Positions 1 to 49,358 of a stretch of 64,000 nt of DNA are shown here, in pieces. Each line of letters starts with the position of its first letter. The first letter of the stretch is position 1. Source of the DNA: Natranaeroarchaeum sulfidigenes (GTDB taxonomy: Archaea; Halobacteriota; Halobacteria; Halobacteriales; Natronoarchaeaceae); the NCBI RefSeq assembly GCF_017094485.1, contig NZ_CP064786.1, positions 2,356,001 through 2,420,000 of the forward strand, in the 5' to 3' direction. The notes under the pieces are model-generated. The model was not told where the DNA came from and did not search any database. It saw only the letters and a program-made list of their open reading frames with translations. The translations under genes were made by a program, and so were the position numbers.

Positions 1-89
1 ACAACGAGGGGATGGAAGACGACGAGATGAACGGCGAGGAAGAGGAGAACGGCGAGGAAGAGGAGAACGGCGAAGAAAACGACGTGTGA
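1..89 (+). CDS. C-terminal end of an acidic protein (5' truncated)
   Basis: Only the last 28 codons are in the window, ending in TGA at 87-89. The tail is almost entirely Glu, Asp, Asn and Gly, with a short E-E-E-E-N-G unit repeated twice. Low-complexity acidic tails of this kind are common on secreted or membrane-anchored haloarchaeal proteins, and a similar but longer composition occurs in the DUF4397 protein at 15.4-16.7 kb. The function cannot be told from this fragment. Confidence 0.6.
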   Translation, partial: NEGMEDDEMNGEEEENGEEEENGEENDV

Positions 90-10054: not shown

Positions 10055-10696
10055 ATGATCGTTGAGTTCTCGTTTGATGTTTCTACGTTGCAGTCGGCGC
10101 TCACGGAGAGTCCAGGGATGACCGTGGAGATGGACCACATGACATCGACGGATACCGTGGCGCTCCGGAAGTTCTTCTGGGCCAGAGGGGGAAACTTCGA
10201 GGCCTTCGAGTCCGGGCTCGAGGACGACCCGACAGTTCGTGATCCGAAACGGATCACCGAAGCACCGGACAGCCGATACTACCGGGTGATCTATCCCGAT
10301 CACCTTCCGGGGGTAGATGCGTACCGGGCGGTTGTCGAACTCGACGGAATGGTGCTCGACGCACGGACCGATGGCGACGGCTGGACAGGCCGGATACGGT
10401 ATCCGGACAGGGACGCCCTGAACGAGTGGTGTGAACGATGCGAGGGCGCTGGGATCACTGTTGACATCGAAGCGATCTACGATCAGGAGCGCCAGCCGCC
10501 CGAACACTCCTACGGTCTCACGCCCGGACAGCGTGAGGCGCTCGTTACCGCGGCCGAGTCTGGCTACTTCTCGATCCCGCGGGAGACGTCTCTGGCCGGT
10601 GTCGGCGAAGAACTCGGCGTCTCAAGTCAGTCGGCGTCCGAGCGACTCCGCCGGGGAATGATAACGCTGATCGAAAATACGCTCGACGAAGATTAG
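10055..10696 (+). CDS. HTH-10 family (bacterio-opsin activator-like) transcriptional regulator
   Basis: 213 residues. The N-terminal 150 residues form the variable sensor-like domain of Bat-type regulators, without a recognisable ligand motif. The C-terminal 55 residues (L-T-P-G-Q-R-E-A-L-V-T-A-A-E-S-G-Y-F, then T-S-L-A-G-V-G-E-E-L-G-V-S-S-Q-S-A-S-E-R-L-R-R-G) are a textbook HTH-10 domain. Longer in-frame extensions read through the inverted-repeat cluster and are rejected. Its stop overlaps the gltB stop by 4 bp on the opposite strand. Targets are unknown. Confidence 0.9.
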   Translation: MIVEFSFDVSTLQSALTESPGMTVEMDHMTSTDTVALRKFFWARGGNFEAFESGLEDDPTVRDPKRITEAPDSRYYRVIYPDHLPGVDAYRAVVELDGMVLDARTDGDGWTGRIRYPDRDALNEWCERCEGAGITVDIEAIYDQERQPPEHSYGLTPGQREALVTAAESGYFSIPRETSLAGVGEELGVSSQSASERLRRGMITLIENTLDED

Positions 10697-13600
10697 TCGT
10701 CGCTCGACGCGAGCCCGCCGGTCGCGGCACTCGCGTCCGGCGTCGCGCTGGACGGCAGCGTCTCGCGAACGTCTTTGGCACCGTCTTCGAGCACCCGTGC
10801 GTACGCGTCGGGCATGATCTTGACGAACGAATCGAGCAGGTCGTCCCAGTTCTCCAGTACCCACTCCGCCTTTTCGCTGTCCGTGTAGGCGGCGTGGTTC
10901 TCGATCAGTCGGCGGAGCATCGGGATGTCCGCGTCCTCGAGCTCGTGTTCGACCGAGACCATCCCGCGGTTGACCGACTCGGGAAACTCGCCGTCCTCGT
11001 CGAGGACGTATGCGATACCGCCGGACATCCCGGCCGCAAAGTTCCGGCCAGTGTCGCCGAGTACGGCGACGACGCCACCGGTCATGTACTCACAGCCGTG
11101 GTCACCGACGCCCTCGACGACGGCTTTGACCCCGGAGTTACGTACAGCGAACCGTTCACCCGCCATCCCGTTAACGTACAGTTCGCCCTGGGTCGCGCCG
11201 TACAGCGCGACGTTGCCGATCGCCATGTTTGCGGCGGGATCGTAGCTGACTTCCGGCGGCGTCGAAACGGCGATTTTTCCACCCGAGAGTCCCTTGCCGA
11301 CGTAGTCGTTGGCGCTCCCCGTCAAATGCATCGAGATACCGTCCGCGAGGAACGCACCGAAGCTCTGCCCGGCGGTACCGTGCAGGTCGACATCGATGGT
11401 GTCCTCGGGCAGCCCCTCGCCGCCGTATTCGGTCGAGACGGCGTTCGAGAGCGTCGCGCCGACCGCGCGGTCCGCGTTCGAGATCCCCGTATCGATGGCG
11501 ACCGGTTCACCGGTTTCGAGCGCCGGTGCCGCGGCCTCGATCAGGTCGTGATCGAGCTGTTCGTCGACCTCGTGGGTCTGCTCGCGGGTCTTGCGGCGCT
11601 GGTCGCCAGCCGGCTCGACGAGCATGTCCGAGAGGTCGACGTTTTTGGCTTTTGGATGCTCGACATCCGTGCGCTGGTCGAGCATGTCGACGCGGCCGAT
11701 CATCTCGTCGACAGTCTCGAAGCCGAGCTCGGCCATAATCTCGCGTAGCTCCTGGGCGATAAACGTCATGTAGTTGATGACGTTCTCGGGTTCGCCGGGG
11801 AACCGGTTCCGGAGCTCCTCGCGCTGGGTGGCGACGCCGACCGGGCAGGTGTTCTTGTGACACTGCCGGGCCATCACACAGCCCGAGGTGACGAGCGAGG
11901 CGGTCCCGAAGATGTACTCCTCGGCACCAAGCAGGGCAGCAACTGCCACGTCACGGCCGGTCTTCATGCCCCCGTCAGCGCTCACGCGGATCCGATCCCG
12001 GAGGTCGGTCTCGACCAGCATCTGATTGGCTTCGGCGAGGCCAAGCTCCCACGGCAGGCCAGCATTTTTGATCGAGGTGCGTGGGCTCGCGCCGGTGCCG
12101 CCGGAGTGACCCGAGATGTGGACCACGTCGGCGTTGGCCTTGGCGACGCCCGCCGCGATGGTGCCGATCCCCGCCTCCGAAACGAGTTTGACGTTGATGT
12201 CGGCGTCCGGGCTCGACGCCTTGAGATCGTGGATCAGCTGCTTGAGGTCCTCGATGGAGTAGATGTCGTGCAGCGGCGGCGGCGAGATGAGGCCGACGCC
12301 CGGCGTCGCATACCGGACGTGTGCGATCATCTCGTTGACCTTCATGCCGGGGAGGTGACCTCCCTCTCCGGGTTTCGACCCCTGTGCCATCTTGATCTGC
12401 AGTTCGTCGGCCTCCGAGAGGTAATGTGAGGTGACGCCGAAGCGACCCGAGGCGACCTGCTTTACATTGCACTCCTTTTCGGTGCCAAAGCGTTCTGGCG
12501 GCTCGCCGCCCTCGCCCGAGTTGCTCTTCCCGCCGATGCGGTTCATGGCGATCGAGTTGTTCTCGTGGGCTTCCGGCGAGAGCGATCCGAGACTCATCGC
12601 GGCCGTCGAGAACCGCTGGACGATCTCGTGGACCGGCTCGACGTCCTCGACGGGGATCGACTCACGTTCGTCAGTCTCGAATTCGAGCAGACCCCGAAGT
12701 GTCTGGAGTGTCTCCTGCTGTTCGTTGACCTCGGCGGCGAACTCCTTGTAACGGCCGTAGTCGCCCGAGCGGACGGACTGCTGGAGTTTGCCGACCGTAT
12801 CGGGGTTCCACTGGTGGTGGATTCCGTTCGAGCGGTGCTCGAACTCGCCATAGCGGTCGATTTCGGGCTCGTCGTCCCAGGCGTTCGTGTGTCGGTCGGT
12901 CAGGTCCTGTTCGATCTCCTCGAGGCCGATTCCCTCGGTTCGGGCCTCGGTGCCCTCGAAGTACTCGGCGACGAAGTCCGAATCCAGCCCGACGGCCTCG
13001 AAAATCTGCGCGCCCTGGTAGCTCTCGACTGTCGAGATGCCCATCTTCGCCATCGTCTTCAGCAGGCCGTCCTCGACGGCCCCGACGTAGGCGTCGACCG
13101 CCTCGCTGATGTCCGCGCCATCTTCACCCGCCACGATGTCGTCGATGGTGCGGTAGGCAAGGTAGGGATCGACCGCGTCAGCGCCGTAGCCGATCAGCGT
13201 CGCGAAGTGATGAACCTGTCGCGGGCCAGCGGACTCGACGACGAGTCCGGCGTGGTTGCGCAGGCCGTTCCGAACCAGGTGATGGTGGACAGCGCCGGTC
13301 GCCAGCAGCGCCGGGATCGGCACCCTGTCGGGACCGGTCGAGCGATCCGAGAGGACGAGAATCTCGTGGCCCGCCTCGATCGCCGCCTCGGCATCCGCAC
13401 GGACGTCCTCGACGGCCTCACGGAGGTCGGTGCCGCGTTCGTAGGTGATGTCGACAACAGCCGTCGACAGCCCCTCCCGGTCGCTTTCCTTGATTGCCGC
13501 CGTCTCGGCGTCGGTAAGGATCGGCGAGTCGACGACCAGTTGTCGTGCATGGGCAGGCGACTCGTCGAGCAGGTTGCGCTGGTGGCCGATCCGGCTTTCG

Positions 13601-15225
13601 AGGCTCGTCACCAGCTCCTCGCGGATGTAATCCAGCGGTGGGTTCGTCACCTGCGCGAACAGCTGTTTGAAGTAAGAGAACAGTGGGCGGTTGTAATCCG
13701 AGAGGACGGACAGCGGCGTGTCGTCGCCCATCGAGCCGACGGGATCTTTGCCGTCTTTCATCATCGGCTCGATCATGTTCTCCAGTTCGTCGTGGCTGTA
13801 CCCCTGTGTTGCCTGGTGCGATCGCAGTTCCTCGATATCGTTTCGGGGAACCAGATCGTCGAGGTCGGCGATATCGCCGATATGGACCTGCTGGTCGTCA
13901 ACCCACTCGCCGTACTTTGCGTCCGTGAGGTCGTCGAAGACCTCGTCGTCCGGGATGACGCGACCCTCTGCAGGGTCGGCGAGGAACAGCTGACCGGGCT
14001 GAAGCCGTCCACGCTCCTCGATGTCGCCGAAGTCCGGTTCGAGCGCCCCGGCCTCGCTGGCCATAATCAGCGTGTTGTCGGTCGTCACGTCGTACCGACA
14101 CGGGCGCAGACCGTTACGGTCGAGTACAGCACCGATCCGGTCGCCGTCAGTGGCACAGACCAGCGCTGGACCGTCCCACGGCTCGACCAGTGAAGCGTGG
14201 AAGTCGTACCAGTCCTTGCGGTCCTGACTCATGCTGTCGTCCCCACGCCAGGCCTCGGGTACGAGCATCCGCAGCGCGTGGGGGAGATCCCGACCGTCTT
14301 CGAGCAGGAGTTCGAGCGCGTTGTCGACGCTCGCCGTATCCGACTGCTCGGGGTCGTTGATGATCGGCTTGAGCGTCTCGATTTCCTCGCCCAGCCGGTC
14401 GCTTTCGAGGTCGGTCTCGCGGGCGCGCATCCAGTTGATGTTGCCCTGAATGGTGTTGAACTCGCCGTTGTGGATGATGTTCCGGTAGGGGTGTGCGAGA
14501 TGCCACGCACCGAGCGTGTTCGTGGAGAACCGGGCGTGAACCATCGCAAAGGTCGACTCGATGCGTTCGTCCTGCAGATCTGGGAAGTACTCGCCGACCT
14601 GATCGCCCTTGAGCAGTCCCTTGTAGACGAGTGTCTGGCGATCGAGCGAACAGACGTAAAATCGGTCGCTCCCGTCAGGCGATTCCGCTTCGACCCGGTT
14701 TTCGAGTTGGCGTCGGGCGGCGTAGAGCCTCGAATCGAACTCTTCGTCCGTGATCTCGGTCGACGGTGTGACGAAACACTGCCACGTTGCTGGCTCGGAG
14801 TCGAGTGCAGTTTTGCCGATCTCACTGTTGTCCGTCGGCACGGAACGCCAGTGGACGACATCGAGGTCGTATTCCGCGAGTTCGCTCTCGACAAACGCTT
14901 TCAGAGCTGACTGCGCGTCGCCGTCCTTCGGAAAGAAGACCGAGCCGACCGCATACCGTTCGGGTAGTTCGACGTCAACGACAGCATCGAAGAACTTCCG
15001 GGGCGTCTGGAGCATCACACCTGCCCCGTCTCCAGTATTCTCTTCTGCGCCAGTTGTTCCCCGATGTTCGAGGTTCTCCAGTAGTTCGACGCCGTCAGCG
15101 ACGACATCGTGTGAGCTTCCGTCATCGAGATCCATGACGACACCTACACCGCAGTTGGACCGCTCGTCAGTCGGGTCGGCGAGACCCCGCGACCGGTCCG
15201 TAATCGATTCACGTTGCTCAGACAT
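10693..15225 (-). CDS. gltB: Glutamate synthase, large subunit
   Basis: 1510 residues, the full length of GltB. It transfers the amide nitrogen of glutamine to 2-oxoglutarate. The class II glutaminase domain begins at Cys25 (R-S-N-C-G-V-G-V), so a 24-residue propeptide would be removed. Residues about 30-420 are the amidotransferase, then a central domain, then the FMN/Fe-S barrel (about 820-1220) with V-H-I-S-G-H-S-G-G-T-G-A-S-P and C-V-M-A-R-Q-C-H-K-N-T-C-P-V-G cluster cysteines, then the GXGXG domain with A-G-Q-S-F-G-A-F. No small subunit gene adjoins, so the electron donor (ferredoxin or another dehydrogenase) is encoded elsewhere. Confidence 0.97.
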   Translation of the reverse strand: MSEQRESITDRSRGLADPTDERSNCGVGVVMDLDDGSSHDVVADGVELLENLEHRGTTGAEENTGDGAGVMLQTPRKFFDAVVDVELPERYAVGSVFFPKDGDAQSALKAFVESELAEYDLDVVHWRSVPTDNSEIGKTALDSEPATWQCFVTPSTEITDEEFDSRLYAARRQLENRVEAESPDGSDRFYVCSLDRQTLVYKGLLKGDQVGEYFPDLQDERIESTFAMVHARFSTNTLGAWHLAHPYRNIIHNGEFNTIQGNINWMRARETDLESDRLGEEIETLKPIINDPEQSDTASVDNALELLLEDGRDLPHALRMLVPEAWRGDDSMSQDRKDWYDFHASLVEPWDGPALVCATDGDRIGAVLDRNGLRPCRYDVTTDNTLIMASEAGALEPDFGDIEERGRLQPGQLFLADPAEGRVIPDDEVFDDLTDAKYGEWVDDQQVHIGDIADLDDLVPRNDIEELRSHQATQGYSHDELENMIEPMMKDGKDPVGSMGDDTPLSVLSDYNRPLFSYFKQLFAQVTNPPLDYIREELVTSLESRIGHQRNLLDESPAHARQLVVDSPILTDAETAAIKESDREGLSTAVVDITYERGTDLREAVEDVRADAEAAIEAGHEILVLSDRSTGPDRVPIPALLATGAVHHHLVRNGLRNHAGLVVESAGPRQVHHFATLIGYGADAVDPYLAYRTIDDIVAGEDGADISEAVDAYVGAVEDGLLKTMAKMGISTVESYQGAQIFEAVGLDSDFVAEYFEGTEARTEGIGLEEIEQDLTDRHTNAWDDEPEIDRYGEFEHRSNGIHHQWNPDTVGKLQQSVRSGDYGRYKEFAAEVNEQQETLQTLRGLLEFETDERESIPVEDVEPVHEIVQRFSTAAMSLGSLSPEAHENNSIAMNRIGGKSNSGEGGEPPERFGTEKECNVKQVASGRFGVTSHYLSEADELQIKMAQGSKPGEGGHLPGMKVNEMIAHVRYATPGVGLISPPPLHDIYSIEDLKQLIHDLKASSPDADINVKLVSEAGIGTIAAGVAKANADVVHISGHSGGTGASPRTSIKNAGLPWELGLAEANQMLVETDLRDRIRVSADGGMKTGRDVAVAALLGAEEYIFGTASLVTSGCVMARQCHKNTCPVGVATQREELRNRFPGEPENVINYMTFIAQELREIMAELGFETVDEMIGRVDMLDQRTDVEHPKAKNVDLSDMLVEPAGDQRRKTREQTHEVDEQLDHDLIEAAAPALETGEPVAIDTGISNADRAVGATLSNAVSTEYGGEGLPEDTIDVDLHGTAGQSFGAFLADGISMHLTGSANDYVGKGLSGGKIAVSTPPEVSYDPAANMAIGNVALYGATQGELYVNGMAGERFAVRNSGVKAVVEGVGDHGCEYMTGGVVAVLGDTGRNFAAGMSGGIAYVLDEDGEFPESVNRGMVSVEHELEDADIPMLRRLIENHAAYTDSEKAEWVLENWDDLLDSFVKIMPDAYARVLEDGAKDVRETLPSSATPDASAATGGLASSDD

Positions 15226-15407: not shown

Positions 15408-16709
15408 TTAGATACTGTCGAAGATGCCGTCGTCGTCTTCGTCGTCATCGTCGTCACCGATGCCGTTGTCATCGTCGTCGTCACCGATTCCATTATCGTC
15501 GTCTTCGTCGTCGTCACCGATGCCGTTGTCGTCGTCTTCGTCGTCACCGATTCCATTATCGTCGTCTTCGTCGTCGTCACCGATGCCGTTGTCGTCCTCC
15601 TCGTCCTCTGGCATCTCCTCGACCTCCGACTCGGGTGTGAGAGCGTCGACGGTAAGCAACAGGTCGAAGCCTGTATCGACGTCGTTCCCGACACCGTTGT
15701 TCTCGTCGTTGTCACCGACGCCATTGTCGTCGTCCGTCCCAACCCCATTGTCGTCGTCACCGACGCCGTTGTCGTCGTCGTTGTCTTCGTCGTCCATCCC
15801 AACGCCGTTGTCCTCGGTTTCACCGTTCTCCTCTTCGAGGAAGCCGACAGCGAACGCCGAGTAGATCACACCTGCTTCGAGTGTGACATCGAAGTCCGCA
15901 ACCGATTCATCCTCGCCTGCTTCCCGAACTTCGAGGGTGTAGTCGCCCTCCTCGACATCGACGGCTCCGAAGTCGCCAAACGAGAGCCCCTCGACGAGGG
16001 GGTCATCGTCGGCGACAATGTCGACTTCCGGTGCATCGGGTGAGGCGTGGACCGCGCGTACCCGGCTCTCGCCGTCCTCCAGATCGTCGAGATCGACGTC
16101 GAGCACGAGGAGTTCGAGCTCCTGTTCGGCCCCTTCATCAACCTCGCCAACGACGGCGGCGGTCGCGACGCCAGCGGGGACGTCGATTTGCTCATCGATG
16201 ACTGCCTCTTCATCCACATCGACACCGTTGGCGTCATCAGATATCCCGACGTCGTCATCCTCGTCATCCTCACCAAAGCCGTTGTCGTCTTCGTCATCGT
16301 CGTCACCAAAGCCGTTGTCGTCTTCGTCATCGTCGTCACCAAAGCCGTTGTCGTCTTCGTCATCGTCGTCACCAAAGCCGTTGTCGTCTTCGTCGTCCTC
16401 ACCGACACCGTTGTCCTCAACGGGGACGACCTGCACCTGATACTCCCCCTCGAGTAGGACCAGGTAATCGCTGATGTCCCGGAACGCGACGCCTTCGAGG
16501 ACGCGCGCGCCGTTTACGTACACATCAACCTCCGGTGCGTCGGGCGAGGCATGAACCGTATTTACGGCAGCGAACGCCGGATCATCCTCATTGAGGTCGT
16601 TGTCCTCGTCGTCCTCATGTTCGTCTGCGAGCGATACGCCGGTTGCCGATAGCAGTGCCGCGGCGCCGGTGCCTGCGAGCACTGTTCGTCGTGTAATGGG
16701 TGTCGACAT
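15408..16709 (-). CDS. Tat-exported DUF4397 protein with three acidic repeat blocks
   Basis: 433 residues from the ATG at 16709. T-R-R-T-V-L-A-G followed by a hydrophobic Ala/Leu/Gly stretch is a twin-arginine signal. Two DUF4397 domains start at V-H-A-S-P-D-A-P-E-V-D (52-62 and 220-230). Acidic repeats interrupt them: a block of D-N-G-F-G-D-D-D-D-E-D units (about 98-150) inside domain 1, D-N-G-V-G units (299-343) inside domain 2, and D-N-G-I-G units (372-426) as the tail. DUF4397 is an exported adhesive-like fold of unknown role. The Asp/Asn/Gly spacing recalls calcium-binding loops, which is inference. No C-terminal anchor is visible. Confidence 0.9.
   Translation of the reverse strand: MSTPITRRTVLAGTGAAALLSATGVSLADEHEDDEDNDLNEDDPAFAAVNTVHASPDAPEVDVYVNGARVLEGVAFRDISDYLVLLEGEYQVQVVPVEDNGVGEDDEDDNGFGDDDDEDDNGFGDDDDEDDNGFGDDDDEDDNGFGEDDEDDDVGISDDANGVDVDEEAVIDEQIDVPAGVATAAVVGEVDEGAEQELELLVLDVDLDDLEDGESRVRAVHASPDAPEVDIVADDDPLVEGLSFGDFGAVDVEEGDYTLEVREAGEDESVADFDVTLEAGVIYSAFAVGFLEEENGETEDNGVGMDDEDNDDDNGVGDDDNGVGTDDDNGVGDNDENNGVGNDVDTGFDLLLTVDALTPESEVEEMPEDEEDDNGIGDDDEDDDNGIGDDEDDDNGIGDDDEDDDNGIGDDDDDNGIGDDDDDEDDDGIFDSI
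15424..15600. repeat. Tandem repeats coding the D-N-G-I-G tail
   Basis: Imperfect units of about 24-36 bp alternate between two spellings of the same peptide (ATTCCATTATC and ATGCCGTTGTC on the plus strand), showing a higher-order two-unit duplication at the 3' end of the DUF4397 gene. Confidence 0.7.
16279..16400. repeat. 33-bp perfect tandem repeat coding D-N-G-F-G units
   Basis: Three identical 33-bp copies begin at 16279, 16312 and 16345, with a diverging fourth from 16378. Perfect identity at the DNA level indicates recent expansion and possible copy-number variation between strains. Confidence 0.8.
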
Positions 16710-16866: not shown

Positions 16867-18789
16867 CTAGAGGAACCGGAACGTTTCGAGGTTCTTCGGC
16901 GCGAACGTCCGGATGTTGTGTTCGTGATACAGCGCGGAGGAGAGGTCCTGTGTCGAGGACTCGTCGCCGTGGACACAGAGCACCTTCTCGGGACGCGGGT
17001 TCATCGTCTTCACGAAGTTCATCAGACCCTGTCGGTCGGCGTGACCCGAGAAGCCGTCGACCGTCTCGACGTCCATCTTGAGGCTGATTTTCGATCCACG
17101 GCCGCTCTCGCCGTCGTTGATGGGGACTTCGTCCCAGCCACTCTGGAGGCGACGGCCGAGCGTTCCCTGCGCCTGATAGCCGACGAAGGTGAGCGTGCTC
17201 TCCTCCTCGCTGGCGAGGTGGCGCAGCCAGGACATGATCGGGCCGCCGGTGACCATACCGGAGGTCGTGAGGATGATACAGGGGCCGCCGTCGGCGATCT
17301 CCTGTCGTTCGTCCTCGCCGGCGTCGATGTGGTTGAACTGATCGGCGAGGAACGGGTTCTTGTCCTCGTGGAAGATCCGATCGCGCAGGTCGTCACGCAG
17401 GTACTCGGGGTAAGTCGTATGGATCGCCGTCGCCTCCCAGATCATCCCGTCGAGATGGACCGGCATTTCGGGTATATCGCCGCTGCGCATCGCCTCTTCG
17501 AGGACGAGCATCATCTCCTGCGATCGGCCGACCGCGAACGCGGGGATCAACACCTTCCCACCACGGTCGTGGGTGTCGTTGATGACCTGTTTGAGCCGCT
17601 CCTCGGCGTCGTCCTGATCGGTCTGGTAGTCGTTCCGGCCGCCGTAGGTCGACTCCATCACGAGCGTCTCGACGCGCGGGAAGTCGTTGACTGCGCCGTT
17701 GAACAGACGGGTGTCGTCGTAGTGGATGTCGCCCGAAAACGCGACGTTGTAGAGCCCGTCGCCGATGTGGAAATGGGTGACTGCCGAGCCGAGGATGTGG
17801 CCCGCGTTGTGCATAGTGAGTTTGACGTCCGGCGCGATATCGGTGACGTCGCCGTACTCAAGCGGGATGGTGTGTTTGATCGCCTCCCGGACCTGCTCGG
17901 AGTCGTACGGTGGAGCCCGACCTTCTTTTGCGGCGACATCGAGGTAGTCCAGCTGGAGCAGCCCCATCAGGTCGCGAGTGGGTTCGGTCGTATAGATCGG
18001 CCCGTCGTAGCCGTACTTGAACAGGATCGGAATGAGCGCGGAGTGGTCCAGGTGGGCGTGTGTCAGGACGACTGCATCGAGGTTCTGCGCGCCAGCGCCG
18101 AGCGCCTCGGGCACCTGCAGATACGGCACTTCGCCCTCCGCACCGGGCTTGTCGCCACAGTCGATGAGAATGCGGGTCTCCGGCGTGCTCAGAATGAACG
18201 CCGCACGGCCGACCTCACGACAGCATCCAAGCGTCGTAATGCGAACGTACTCGTCGTCGGACATCTCCTCACGGTGGATCTGTCGCCCGACGCGTTCGAG
18301 GATGTCGCGGCGCTCGTCACGTTCCTGTTTGAGGAAGTTCCGGACGTTCGAGACCGTCGAGGACTCGATCGGCGGCGTCCGGACGACCTCGGGTGTCCAG
18401 CCGACTTCCTTGGTGATGTCCCGGAGCGTCGAGCCGTGGCGACCGATCACCATGCCTGGTTTCTCGGCCTCGATCACGACCTCGCCGGTGTCCTCGTGGA
18501 AGTCGAGATCCGTGACGCCCGCCTCGTCGGGGATGACCTTCATCACCTTCTCTCTGGCGTCACGTGGACGTTCGAGGGCATCGGGATCCGGTCGAACGGT
18601 AATTCGTTTACGCAGCTTGCTGGCGAGCTGTCGAATCAGGTCACCCTGACGCGCGAACTTCTTTGGATCACGCGTGTAGACGACGAGCTCCGGTCCCTCG
18701 TATTTGACATCGGAGACCGTGATATCCGCCGGCAATTCGCTGGTAATCGTTTCGTGTAGGTCGTCGAGTTGTCGATCAACGGAACTCAT
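16867..18789 (-). CDS. Archaeal KH/beta-CASP ribonuclease FttA (aCPSF1), transcription termination factor
   Basis: 640 residues from the ATG at 18789. The N-terminal KH region (1-140, with M-V-I-G-R-H-G at 113-119) is followed by a metallo-beta-lactamase core with T-H-A-H-L-D-H-S (243-250), a beta-CASP insert, and the late G-F-S-G-H-A-D and C-V-H-G motifs. FttA cleaves nascent RNA and ends transcription in archaea, taking the place of a Rho-like factor. Length and domain order match the essential archaeal orthologue. It is monocistronic with a 351-bp upstream region. Confidence 0.96.
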   Translation of the reverse strand: MSSVDRQLDDLHETITSELPADITVSDVKYEGPELVVYTRDPKKFARQGDLIRQLASKLRKRITVRPDPDALERPRDAREKVMKVIPDEAGVTDLDFHEDTGEVVIEAEKPGMVIGRHGSTLRDITKEVGWTPEVVRTPPIESSTVSNVRNFLKQERDERRDILERVGRQIHREEMSDDEYVRITTLGCCREVGRAAFILSTPETRILIDCGDKPGAEGEVPYLQVPEALGAGAQNLDAVVLTHAHLDHSALIPILFKYGYDGPIYTTEPTRDLMGLLQLDYLDVAAKEGRAPPYDSEQVREAIKHTIPLEYGDVTDIAPDVKLTMHNAGHILGSAVTHFHIGDGLYNVAFSGDIHYDDTRLFNGAVNDFPRVETLVMESTYGGRNDYQTDQDDAEERLKQVINDTHDRGGKVLIPAFAVGRSQEMMLVLEEAMRSGDIPEMPVHLDGMIWEATAIHTTYPEYLRDDLRDRIFHEDKNPFLADQFNHIDAGEDERQEIADGGPCIILTTSGMVTGGPIMSWLRHLASEEESTLTFVGYQAQGTLGRRLQSGWDEVPINDGESGRGSKISLKMDVETVDGFSGHADRQGLMNFVKTMNPRPEKVLCVHGDESSTQDLSSALYHEHNIRTFAPKNLETFRFL

Positions 18790-19140
18790 AGTGTAAACGT
18801 CATAGTAGCGTGGTTCGTCCCAGTGAACGCCGATCTCGCGGCAAGCGATGCCGAGACGTCCTGCAGCGACCGGATTCGGGCGGCCTGCGCAAATGCGCCA
18901 GTGACGGATGGGTACGACGAAACCGGCCCATGCCGTCGGATAGCCACAGGGTATGCATACTGAATGATCGGTGTCTCTGGGGGATATGCTCCTGGTATGT
19001 CGGGCTCCTCTCGCGGACTCCGCAAGAGGATCCAGGAAAAACCCGCTTACTCGGCTGTACTCGTCGCATCTTATAAAAATCTTCGCAATAACAGGGGAGA
19101 ATTGAGACAGTAACCGGACGTGACGCGGATCAGAGGGCTG
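18790..19140. other. Divergent intergenic region, promoters only
   Basis: No gene or RNA was recognised. A perfect GTATGCATAC palindrome sits at 18951-18960. A TATA-like box, CTTATAAAAATC (about 19070-19081), is oriented toward the hypothetical gene at 19141 and would give a leader of about 30-40 nt. Confidence 0.35.
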
Positions 19141-19671
19141 ATGACCGAGCATAAACCGATCCGGGCCGAACCGGGAGGCATGCGACTGACACCGGCCACC
19201 GTCGAGCGGGAGTACGAGTGGGTTCGTGCGCGTGACGACATCGTCGTCGACCTCATCAACGACGCGCGCTCTGATCTGGAAGCGATCTTCGAGACGGAGG
19301 TCGCTTCAGTCGACGCCGAGCAGTATCGTCAGGAAGTCGACGCCGTCTTCGCCGACGGTGATCTCGCCGTCAACGTCGCCGCGCTCGTTGCCATACTCCG
19401 CGAGCTCGACGTACAGGACGACTACCCCGGGTTCGTCATCGACGAACTACTCGGCCGGCGGCTCGCTGGCATGATCGCCGGTAACCAGCCGTTCTCCCTG
19501 CTCTGCGAGGCCACGTTTCATTACGCGGACATCCATCACCATCCCGAGAACGGCGATGCTGGTAGCGACGATCTCGACGCCGCGCTCGCAGCGGGCTTCC
19601 AGACGCGCCTGCCAGGCTGGGACTGGACGGAGGCGGAAAGTCCGTTTGCAGTAGCGTCCAGCCGGCAGTGA
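19141..19671 (+). CDS. Conserved-looking hypothetical protein
   Basis: 176 residues from the ATG at 19141; a GTG at 19120 and an internal ATG at 19180 are alternatives. It is acidic, soluble and mostly helical in appearance, without Cys pairs or transmembrane segments. A His-rich spot, H-Y-A-D-I-H-H-H, follows an F-S-L-L-C-E-A-T-F segment, and the C-terminus is W-D-W-rich. High-GC haloarchaeal codon use argues for a real gene. No family was recognised. It precedes the channel-like gene on the same strand by 61 bp. Confidence 0.7.
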   Translation: MTEHKPIRAEPGGMRLTPATVEREYEWVRARDDIVVDLINDARSDLEAIFETEVASVDAEQYRQEVDAVFADGDLAVNVAALVAILRELDVQDDYPGFVIDELLGRRLAGMIAGNQPFSLLCEATFHYADIHHHPENGDAGSDDLDAALAAGFQTRLPGWDWTEAESPFAVASSRQ

Positions 19672-39000: not shown

Positions 39001-39023
39001 GCCGTCGGAGATATGTGATACAG

Positions 39024-39386
39024 ATGTCTGGTGACGATCTTTCCGGTCGACGCTGCGAAAGCGACCGTATCGCAGAGCAGCCTGTTTCGATCGACGAAGT
39101 ATTACAACGCCATGGTATAACACCTTTTCTCGACGCGCCAGCCGAGTTACACACTATTCTGAGCTCACCGTTTCGGAAGTGTGTCCTCATCGAACTCGCC
39201 CAAGCAGATGGCCCACTCACACCGGAAGAGCTTGCTCGGCGCGTCGTCGAATACGAGGAAGTCGAAGTGACGACTCGGTCGAAAGCCCTCGTTCGTCTGC
39301 ATCACATTCATCTCCCGAAGTTACGATCGTGTGGGGCCGTCAAAAAGAATAACTATTCTAATGACTATGTCATTGAAGTCGTGTGA
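39024..39386 (+). CDS. DUF7344-like winged-helix protein
   Basis: 120 residues. L-S-S-P-F-R-K-C-V-L-I-E-L-A-Q-A-D-G-P-L-T-P-E-E-L-A-R-R-V, then a V-R-L-H-H-I-H-L-P-K-L segment followed by a short wing with K-K-N-N-Y-S, is the layout of the haloarchaeal winged-helix family I know as DUF7344. It is probably a DNA-binding regulator. It reads toward the AT tract and the HTH-10 gene that follow. The base composition at its 3' end drops in GC content, which is unusual in this window. Confidence 0.78.
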   Translation: MSGDDLSGRRCESDRIAEQPVSIDEVLQRHGITPFLDAPAELHTILSSPFRKCVLIELAQADGPLTPEELARRVVEYEEVEVTTRSKALVRLHHIHLPKLRSCGAVKKNNYSNDYVIEVV

Positions 39387-39427: not shown

Positions 39428-39469
<42 letters not shown>

Positions 39470-39480
39470 CTACTTCCAGT

Positions 39481-40128
39481 ATGTCTGTTCTCGCAGATGT
39501 CTCAGTAGCTCCAACAGCGCTCCCTCTTGGAGACTTGTTGACGTCGGAGCCCGTATCACGGATCGAGTTCGAGCGGGCAGTACACTTCAGCACACAGCCG
39601 GTACAGTTCCTCTGGATAACCAGTACCTCCCCTGACGAGACGATCTCACGGATTCGTTCGCTGGACTCGGTGGTCGGTGCACTGCCGTATGGTTCAGTTG
39701 AGAACTCGTCGCTCGTTCGCGTAGAGTGGTCGCCCGACTTTCACACTGACTTCGTTCGGCTGCTTTCCGAGCGAGGTATTGTCGTGGTTGAAGCTGTCGG
39801 CGAGCATAGGTCGTGGTCGCTGCGGCTTCGGGGCCCGGACGATGGGTCGCTGCGACGTCTCTACGACGACTGTACATCGTCTCACATCCAGTTTGAAATC
39901 GAACAGCTCCACACGGTTCCCGGCCCGATGCGTGGCTGTGCAATGACTGACAAACAGCTCGAAGCGGTCACCGCCGCGTTCGAGGAGGGGTTTTTCGATG
40001 TTCCTCGTCGGACGACGCTCGGCGAACTATCCGATCGATTCGACATTTCCGAACAGGCCCTCTCGAAGTTGATTCGACGCGGCGTCCGGTCCGTCCTCTC
40101 GGAGCATCTATCCGCCGGGGCGGAGTGA
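39481..40128 (+). CDS. HTH-10 family (bacterio-opsin activator-like) regulator
   Basis: 215 residues from the ATG at 39481; the GTG at 39466 adds five residues. The sensor-like N-terminal region (1-155) includes V-Q-F-L-W-I-T-S-T-S and V-E-W-S-P-D-F. The C-terminal HTH-10 domain reads M-T-D-K-Q-L-E-A-V-T-A-A-F-E-E-G-F-F, then T-L-G-E-L-S-D-R-F-D-I-S-E-Q-A-L-S-K-L-I-R-R-G. It is a distant relative of the regulator at 10055. Its promoter lies in the AT repeat, so expression may vary with repeat length. Targets are unknown. Confidence 0.9.
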   Translation: MSVLADVSVAPTALPLGDLLTSEPVSRIEFERAVHFSTQPVQFLWITSTSPDETISRIRSLDSVVGALPYGSVENSSLVRVEWSPDFHTDFVRLLSERGIVVVEAVGEHRSWSLRLRGPDDGSLRRLYDDCTSSHIQFEIEQLHTVPGPMRGCAMTDKQLEAVTAAFEEGFFDVPRRTTLGELSDRFDISEQALSKLIRRGVRSVLSEHLSAGAE

Positions 40129-48521: not shown

Positions 48522-49358
48522 CTACCAGGACCGGTCGTCGTCCTGCCTGTCGTCGACGCTCTCGTCGTCCTGCCTGTCGTCGACGCTCTCGTCGTCGGCT
48601 CCCCACTCGTTGTCGGATGCCGTGTCGTCTGACTCCCAGTTATTCAGTTCTTCCCCCTGCTGTCCCCAGCCCGCGTCGCCGCCCGGTTCCGGGTCGTCCC
48701 AGCTGCTCGACGTCGAACTCGACTCCCACGTTTCGTCTTCCGGCGTCCCGTCCGAAAGCGCCGATCCCTTTCGGAACTGCTGGACCATCGCTCCGATACC
48801 GAGCGAAGAGACGATCAACGCGATGAGCCCGCCCGCAACCGGGATCGAGGTGCCAATCGCCGTCACGACGAAGCCGACAAGAAACGCAAGCCAGAGCGTC
48901 TTCGTGGATGGCGGGCGTTCGGTTCGACCGGCGAACTCCGCAAGCAGGAAGCGCCCGATCAGGATGTCGACGAGCACTGCACCGACGAAAGAGACCAGAA
49001 CGAGCGCGAGCAGGAGTGGAATCCCGACGAGAGCGCCAATAAACGTCAGTATGAGCACGAGGCTGACGATGAAGACACCGATAACGGTCCCGAACCCGAT
49101 CAGGGCAGTCGTTATGGGCTCGTCACGCATATGCTGGTTCGTCGATCGGGTGTACTCCGGGGTGAGGTGGATAAGGACGGCGGCGATCAGCCCGAAGAAT
49201 ACGAACGAGGCGGCGAGTCCTGCGAGCATCGCCGTCGTCGATAGTTCGTCGAATGCCACGGCGATCTCTTCGGGGTTCTGTTGGGTCGCACTCGTAACTC
49301 CGGAAAACAGCACGAGAGCACAGGTTGATGCGATCGCATGGAGGGCGGATCGTCTCAT
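48522..49358 (-). CDS. Exported/membrane protein with C-terminal acidic repeats
   Basis: 278 residues. A hydrophobic N-terminus (signal-like, ending about S-A-T-Q-Q) is followed by four to five further membrane helices (about 45-65, 85-130, 155-185). The C-terminal 80 residues are Ser/Glu/Trp-rich and end with two perfect D-D-E-S-V-D-D-R-Q repeats. Similar haloarchaeal proteins are annotated only as membrane or bactofilin-like proteins; no function can be assigned. It precedes the AAA gene on the same strand by 56 bp. Confidence 0.75.
   Translation of the reverse strand: MRRSALHAIASTCALVLFSGVTSATQQNPEEIAVAFDELSTTAMLAGLAASFVFFGLIAAVLIHLTPEYTRSTNQHMRDEPITTALIGFGTVIGVFIVSLVLILTFIGALVGIPLLLALVLVSFVGAVLVDILIGRFLLAEFAGRTERPPSTKTLWLAFLVGFVVTAIGTSIPVAGGLIALIVSSLGIGAMVQQFRKGSALSDGTPEDETWESSSTSSSWDDPEPGGDAGWGQQGEELNNWESDDTASDNEWGADDESVDDRQDDESVDDRQDDDRSW
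48537..48590. repeat. 27-bp perfect tandem duplication
   Basis: Two identical 27-bp copies (48537-48563 and 48564-48590) encode the D-D-E-S-V-D-D-R-Q repeats at the C-terminus of the membrane protein. The reading frame is preserved, so copy number could vary. Confidence 0.75.

Follow-up and report, generated by a model that had tools for sequence, protein, structure and literature searches.

A gene of Natranaeroarchaeum sulfidigenes encodes a two-domain DUF4397 protein in which, on a reading that we hold with slightly better than even confidence, the hairpin turns and C-terminus of a Tat-exported sandwich have been grown by tandem duplication into disordered polyanionic spacers. Our analyses establish the architecture of the protein, the insertion sites (in a structural model), the turnover of the inserted tracts and the recurrence of inserts at the same hairpins in relatives, and this recurrence across DUF4397 relatives is what is new here. 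The gene lies in a 64,000-nucleotide stretch of the genome which we refer to as the window (contig NZ_CP064786.1, positions 2,356,001 to 2,420,000 of the forward strand), and all positions given below are those of the window unless stated otherwise.

A DUF4397 protein split by acidic repeats

The original prediction had the coordinates and frame of the gene right and recognised its product as a DUF4397 protein, an assignment supported by Pfam (PF14344, 127.6 bits, the curated cut-off being 30.6), with the match falling into three stretches because the repeat blocks split the domains. No Pfam family besides DUF4397 was found at E-values up to 1, NCBIfam returned no families at the same threshold, and a sequence search of the PDB gave no matches. 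The gene and its features are as follows:

15408..16709, minus strand: DUF4397 tandem-domain protein gene (433 aa, from an ATG at 16709 to a stop at 15408)
16623..16709, minus strand: putative Tat-type signal, residues 1–29, MSTPITRRTVLAGTGAAALLSATGVSLA-D, without a lipobox Cys (by-eye reading of the sequence)
16098..16574, minus strand: DUF4397 domain 1, residues 46–204, split by block 1 (Pfam and AlphaFold model)
16215..16415, minus strand: block 1, acidic NG[F/V] repeats, residues 99–165, 57% D+E, in the domain 1 hairpin between strands 5 and 6
16270..16394, minus strand: 125-bp exact period-33 tandem repeat within block 1
15639..16070, minus strand: DUF4397 domain 2, residues 214–357, split by block 2 (Pfam and AlphaFold model)
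15672..15818, minus strand: block 2, acidic NGVG repeats, residues 298–346, 41% D+E, in the domain 2 hairpin between strands 7 and 8
15411..15596, minus strand: C-terminal NGIG tail, residues 372–433, 60% D+E, with a 63-bp higher-order unit

Lysine and cysteine are absent from the protein, and its count of K+R minus D+E is -161. Its N-terminus, read by eye, carries an RR motif and a hydrophobic stretch, and we take the RR of MSTPITRRTVLAGTGAAALLSATGVSLA to be a twin-arginine motif. Inspection of the sequence found neither a lipobox cysteine nor a C-terminal membrane anchor, and the C-terminal end consists of acidic repeats. The protein had been described as a surface protein. The Tat-type signal agrees with this, but as no membrane anchor turned up, we go no further than calling the protein putatively exported.

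The gene is flanked by gltB (10693–15225) and a beta-CASP/CPSF-type RNase gene (16867–19152), both named from their sequences and all on the same strand. Long serine-rich open frames lie opposite the repeats on the plus strand (15424–15864 and 16018–16440), and these most likely just mirror the GAC-rich coding strand and are not genes. The genome also encodes a DUF4397 paralog, just beyond the window edge, that has a lipobox-like LAGC and lacks loop inserts. The C-terminal end of this paralog occupies window positions 1–89 (G000:C1:2355187-2356089), some 15 kb from our gene, and has an NGEEEE-repeat tail with an 18-bp tandem unit at 29–77.

The blocks are recent local expansions of DNA

Block 1 consists of NGVG, four NGFG and NGVD units in that order, block 2 of five NGVG units, and the tail of five NGIG units. 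The earlier description of block 2 and the tail by their NGVG and NGIG units holds, while that of block 1 as NGFG only was slightly too simple, as NGVG and NGVD units flank the NGFG array. The three perfect 33-bp copies reported for block 1 were found inside the 125-bp period-33 stretch, where the longest exact self-repeat is 92 bp at an offset of 33 and the Tandem Repeats Finder score of 253 is well above chance. The 63-bp higher-order unit of the tail array goes beyond what had been noticed before, and here the NGIG codons alternate between AACGGCATCGGT and AATGGAATCGGT. Units are between 7 and 13 residues long in the different blocks, and the repeats are therefore without a fixed register. 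The blocks are recent local expansions of DNA.

Two other tandem repeats in the window are recorded here for completeness. A predicted membrane protein (48522–49358, minus strand) has a DDESVDDRQ tail encoded by a 27-bp perfect tandem repeat at 48535–48596, and an (AT)17.5 run at 39431–39465 lies between open frames 39015–39386 and 39466–40128, the second of which ends in a helix-turn-helix-like sequence.

Insertion sites in the predicted structure

An AlphaFold model of the 433-aa protein, built from an input alignment of the window protein and 49 tandem-domain rows from the profile-scan loci, has eight strands in each domain, with pLDDT values of about 95 in the folded cores and mostly 40–60 for block and tail residues. 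Block 1 (99–165) is placed between strands 88–96 and 171–177, and the equivalent turn in domain 2 comprises residues 264–268 only. Block 2 (298–346) is placed between strand 281–288 and the last strand, 349–357, which still forms after the insert (pLDDT about 87). In the model both blocks are thus inside domains at inter-strand turns, as had been proposed, and not at domain boundaries, and the DUF4397 fold is predicted to be intact despite the inserts, although this is a model and not a solved structure.

The best structural match among the 995 chains aligned was the PepT2 extracellular domain, with a Z-score of 16.6 over 178 residues and covering both domains (PepT-type match 5a9i_A, rmsd 3.1 over 178 aligned residues), which we take as likeness of fold without any claim of membership. 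Next came PepT1, HGSNAT with a Z-score of 12.8 and AlgF domains with Z-scores of about 10, and weak matches to transthyretin and cholesterol-dependent cytolysin domains (Z 7–8) were taken as reflecting a common beta-sandwich arrangement. AlgF and HGSNAT work in acetylation systems, AlgF in the O-acetylation of alginate. The AlgF N- and C-terminal domains and the HGSNAT luminal domain are single-domain fold matches, but no catalytic or pathway link to the window protein was seen. The PepT1 and PepT2 extracellular domain shares with the model a tandem immunoglobulin-like, eight-strand sandwich in which both domains superpose (fold described in PMC4597091). However, sequence identity to the window protein is only about 12–13%, the PepT domain sits within a transporter, and acidic repeats are absent from the description of the domain as far as the available part of PMC4597091 goes.

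The same source gives the sheet orders of the PepT extracellular domain as 4-1-7-8 and 3-2-5-6. If this strand order is carried over to the DUF4397 model on the strength of the fold match, turns 2-3, 5-6 and 7-8 would be intra-sheet hairpins, and connections 1-2, 3-4, 4-5 and 6-7 would cross between the sheets. We also considered whether the permissive turns might all be at one pole of the sandwich, but dropped the idea over the direction of strands 4 and 5; only turns 5-6 and 7-8 arguably share a pole.

Turnover of the repeats between close relatives

The ortholog in the one same-genus genome compared is 419 aa long, with 85% identity to the window protein and all three blocks present. Identity is 97% for core 1 and 88% for core 2, with dN/dS values of 0.09 and 0.18, respectively, and the repeats are too diverged for reliable alignment. 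Unit numbers, spacings and third residues all differ between the two proteins: block 1 of the ortholog has NGVD, NGVG, NGVG and NGFS plus DVGM units, block 2 has NGIG plus NGFG, and the tail mixes NGI with NGV units but is mostly I, while the inserts keep a D/E content of 48–57%. The rule that each block has its own third residue therefore applies to the window genome but breaks down in the ortholog (V/V/V/F in block 1, I/F in block 2 and I with V in the tail), and the block-specific residue is the product of recent local homogenisation and not a conserved trait. This one comparison shows fast turnover of the tracts under what the dN/dS values indicate is purifying selection on the core, and the repeats are not identical in the two genomes.

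Two sister-genus genomes (G003 and G005) have a homolog close to gltB and in the same orientation, apparently separated from it by one more ORF, and their gltB is 84% and 83% identical to that of the window. These homologs have a short turn at the block 1 site and nothing at the block 2 site, and as these positional orthologs are free of inserts, the inserts most likely arose in the genus of the window. The view that the blocks are separate local expansions is upheld by the exact DNA periodicity, the fast turnover against the ortholog and the insert-free orthologs of the sister genus.

Inserts recur in the same hairpins across the family

When the named genomes were first scanned with the full-length protein, no match was obtained, five of the six search patterns coming from acidic, low-complexity stretches, and a second scan with the family alignment identified 80 loci out of 210 relatives. 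For a census of inserts, 290 DUF4397 domains from 129 open frames were aligned to a profile in which long insertions carried a low penalty, and those scoring at least 40 were kept (277 domains in 127 frames, leaving out the 13 of 290 which scored under 40). Because the search for domains relied on the HxSPDAP motif, which is located at the 1-2 connection, this connection is outside the count; the frames came from similarity searches and the frequencies are not population estimates.

Inserts of at least 12 residues were found in turns 2-3 (3 inserts), 5-6 (8, one of them judged an alignment artefact) and 7-8 (8), and none was found in the 3-4, 4-5 or 6-7 connections of the 277 domains. The artefact is a 14-residue insert in L066 at profile position 55 which is ordinary strand sequence, and six further insertions of at least 12 residues after the last strand were regarded as tails and not counted as turns. 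The 18 accepted inserts are in nine proteins and all within the three intra-sheet hairpins. The carriers are the window gene and its ortholog (L002), L021 (of the same family as the window gene), L062, L078 (Natronorubrum sulfidifaciens), L096 (Haloterrigena salina), two L095 proteins (Halobacteriales archaeon QS_6_71_20) and L133 (Halobaculum litoreum), which by our reading of their N-termini, made without a tree, may represent about five independent lineages. A second AlphaFold model, of L078, also has folded cores, with disordered inserts in turn 7-8 of domain 1 and in turns 5-6 and 7-8 of domain 2.

D+E content ranges from 15 to 58% across the 18 inserts, and K or R is present in just one. 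Inserts from the two L095 proteins and L096 have up to eight N-x-S/T sites each, compared with none in the inserts of the window gene, and these sequon-rich versions are possible N-glycosylation brushes. The haloarchaeal tandem-domain proteins share two consecutive domains, the conserved HxSPDAPxVDV motif, a putative export signal and acidic linkers or tails with the window protein, which differs in having large intra-domain acidic arrays where most relatives have short turns (277 domains). Further afield, three Bacillales DUF4397 proteins (L139, L143 and L147) have a PQTG-like motif near the C-terminal end, which suggests sortase-type anchoring. Neither these repeats nor insert hot spots in the DUF4397/PepT-type fold were described in the results of our literature search. 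DUF4397 is mentioned in a Halorubrum archaellin by one paper and in a chitinase by another, neither of which gives a function in the text available.

The repeat unit in other haloarchaeal proteins

A degenerate DNA pattern for DNG-x-GDDD was found in five of 392 genomes of the order, with eight occurrences in the window's own genome, all in the 15408–16709 gene, and three in the same-genus genome, in the ortholog. In the other three genomes the pattern is in unrelated proteins, named here from their sequences: an AMP-ligase-like protein whose C-terminal tail has five DNG[F/L]G units in tandem (G206; L169, G206:C18:827500-831500), an acidic protein in which repeated beta-like segments alternate with several DENGVDTDDD arrays (G093; L170, G093:C1:910500-915500), and an acidic protein of largely disordered look (G104). 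The unit is therefore not tied to DUF4397 or to export, and descent of the three blocks from one ancestral motif, as originally envisaged, is not established. As the AMP-ligase-like protein is apparently intracellular, its tail also speaks against any role confined to the cell surface.

Halobacteria are enriched in acidic low-complexity regions, with 34% acidic residues compared to 15% in other archaea (PMC6821194), and the chemistry of the blocks is therefore ordinary for the group. The acid-rich tracts surveyed there resemble those of the window protein, but inserts within the hairpins of one fold are not described in the available part of that survey. Their placement is less ordinary than their chemistry, as turns of the same kinds have grown repeatedly within a single fold.

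Spacers, by-products or brushes

We propose that tandem duplication of DNA would have lengthened one hairpin turn per domain and the C-terminus into disordered polyanionic tracts, on a protein of two tandem immunoglobulin/transthyretin-like DUF4397 beta-sandwich domains whose Tat export is predicted from the signal sequence. Intra-sheet hairpin turns may tolerate insertion in that they could lengthen without disturbing the sandwich, and purifying selection would hold the folded core while the tracts turn over. The tracts may then act as hydrated acidic spacers, keeping the protein soluble and the conserved core off neighbouring surfaces in brine.

The blocks might instead have arisen neutrally through slippage or recombination in GAC-rich DNA and simply be tolerated by the turns, having no function, and we regard this as the less probable but still a serious account. 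Exact recent DNA copies and high turnover between species speak for it, the DNGxGDDD unit is found in unrelated proteins including the AMP-ligase-like one, and the closest family members manage without inserts. Against this, both genomes of the genus keep all three blocks, the inserts of the ortholog are still 48–57% D/E, and NG units bearing a hydrophobic residue have been retained. Relatives have also repeatedly gained hydrophilic inserts that are nearly free of K and R, yet inserts that break the fold or export would be lost anyway.

A broader reading, which we offer only tentatively and think unlikely at present, is that the three intra-sheet DUF4397 hairpins are recurrent growth points which selection, repeatedly and in separate haloarchaeal lineages, expands by tandem duplication into length-tunable hydrophilic brushes, either acidic or rich in N-glycosylation sites, with the inter-sheet connections staying fixed. 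It is more doubtful still that the inserts are adaptive, lineage-specific brushes on a shared adhesion or docking core, whose length and chemistry (acid or N-glycan sites) would be adjusted to the niche or to pressure from phages. Such tuning would fit the repeated growth seen at homologous hairpins and the varied chemistry, including the sequon-rich versions, but few lineages have been sampled.

Specific calcium- or magnesium-binding loops that fold on binding (EF-hand, thrombospondin-3 or RTX-like) are very improbable: the composition is rich in Asp, Asn and Gly and block 1 units read D-x-D-x-N-G-x-x-D, but the units of 7 to 13 residues have no fixed register and their spacing, once likened to calcium-binding loops, fits the pattern of such loops no more often than shuffled linkers do. 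EF-hand and thrombospondin-3 loops have a characteristic spacing of acidic ligands, and we counted units with D/N/S at positions 1 and 3 and D/N/S/T/E at position 9 around N-G, shuffling the linkers 2000 times. Six of 16 units fitted in the window protein against a shuffled mean of 7.2 (reached or exceeded in 1743/2000 shuffles), and five of 12 in the ortholog against 5.2 (1382/2000), and we rejected this reading as the ligand spacing is no better than composition gives. The RTX repeat is a fixed 9-residue GGxGxDxUx unit, and it too was rejected for units of varying length with NG rather than GG and the lack of any Pfam match besides DUF4397 (E up to 1). Non-specific binding of counter-ions is likely for any polyanion.

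Returning to the acidic spacers that we favour, the window protein provides a natural case in which the predicted fold is kept while hairpin turns gain 50 or more disordered, highly charged residues by tandem duplication, and insertion-accepting turns can now be named for the widespread and uncharacterised DUF4397 fold. These may serve as a guide to loop insertions in salt-tolerant scaffolds, and the distinction between selected spacers and tolerated noise in haloarchaeal exported proteins becomes testable by simple deletions. Should the hairpins prove to be recurrent growth points, DUF4397 proteins would offer a modular and evolvable surface coating over one conserved core.
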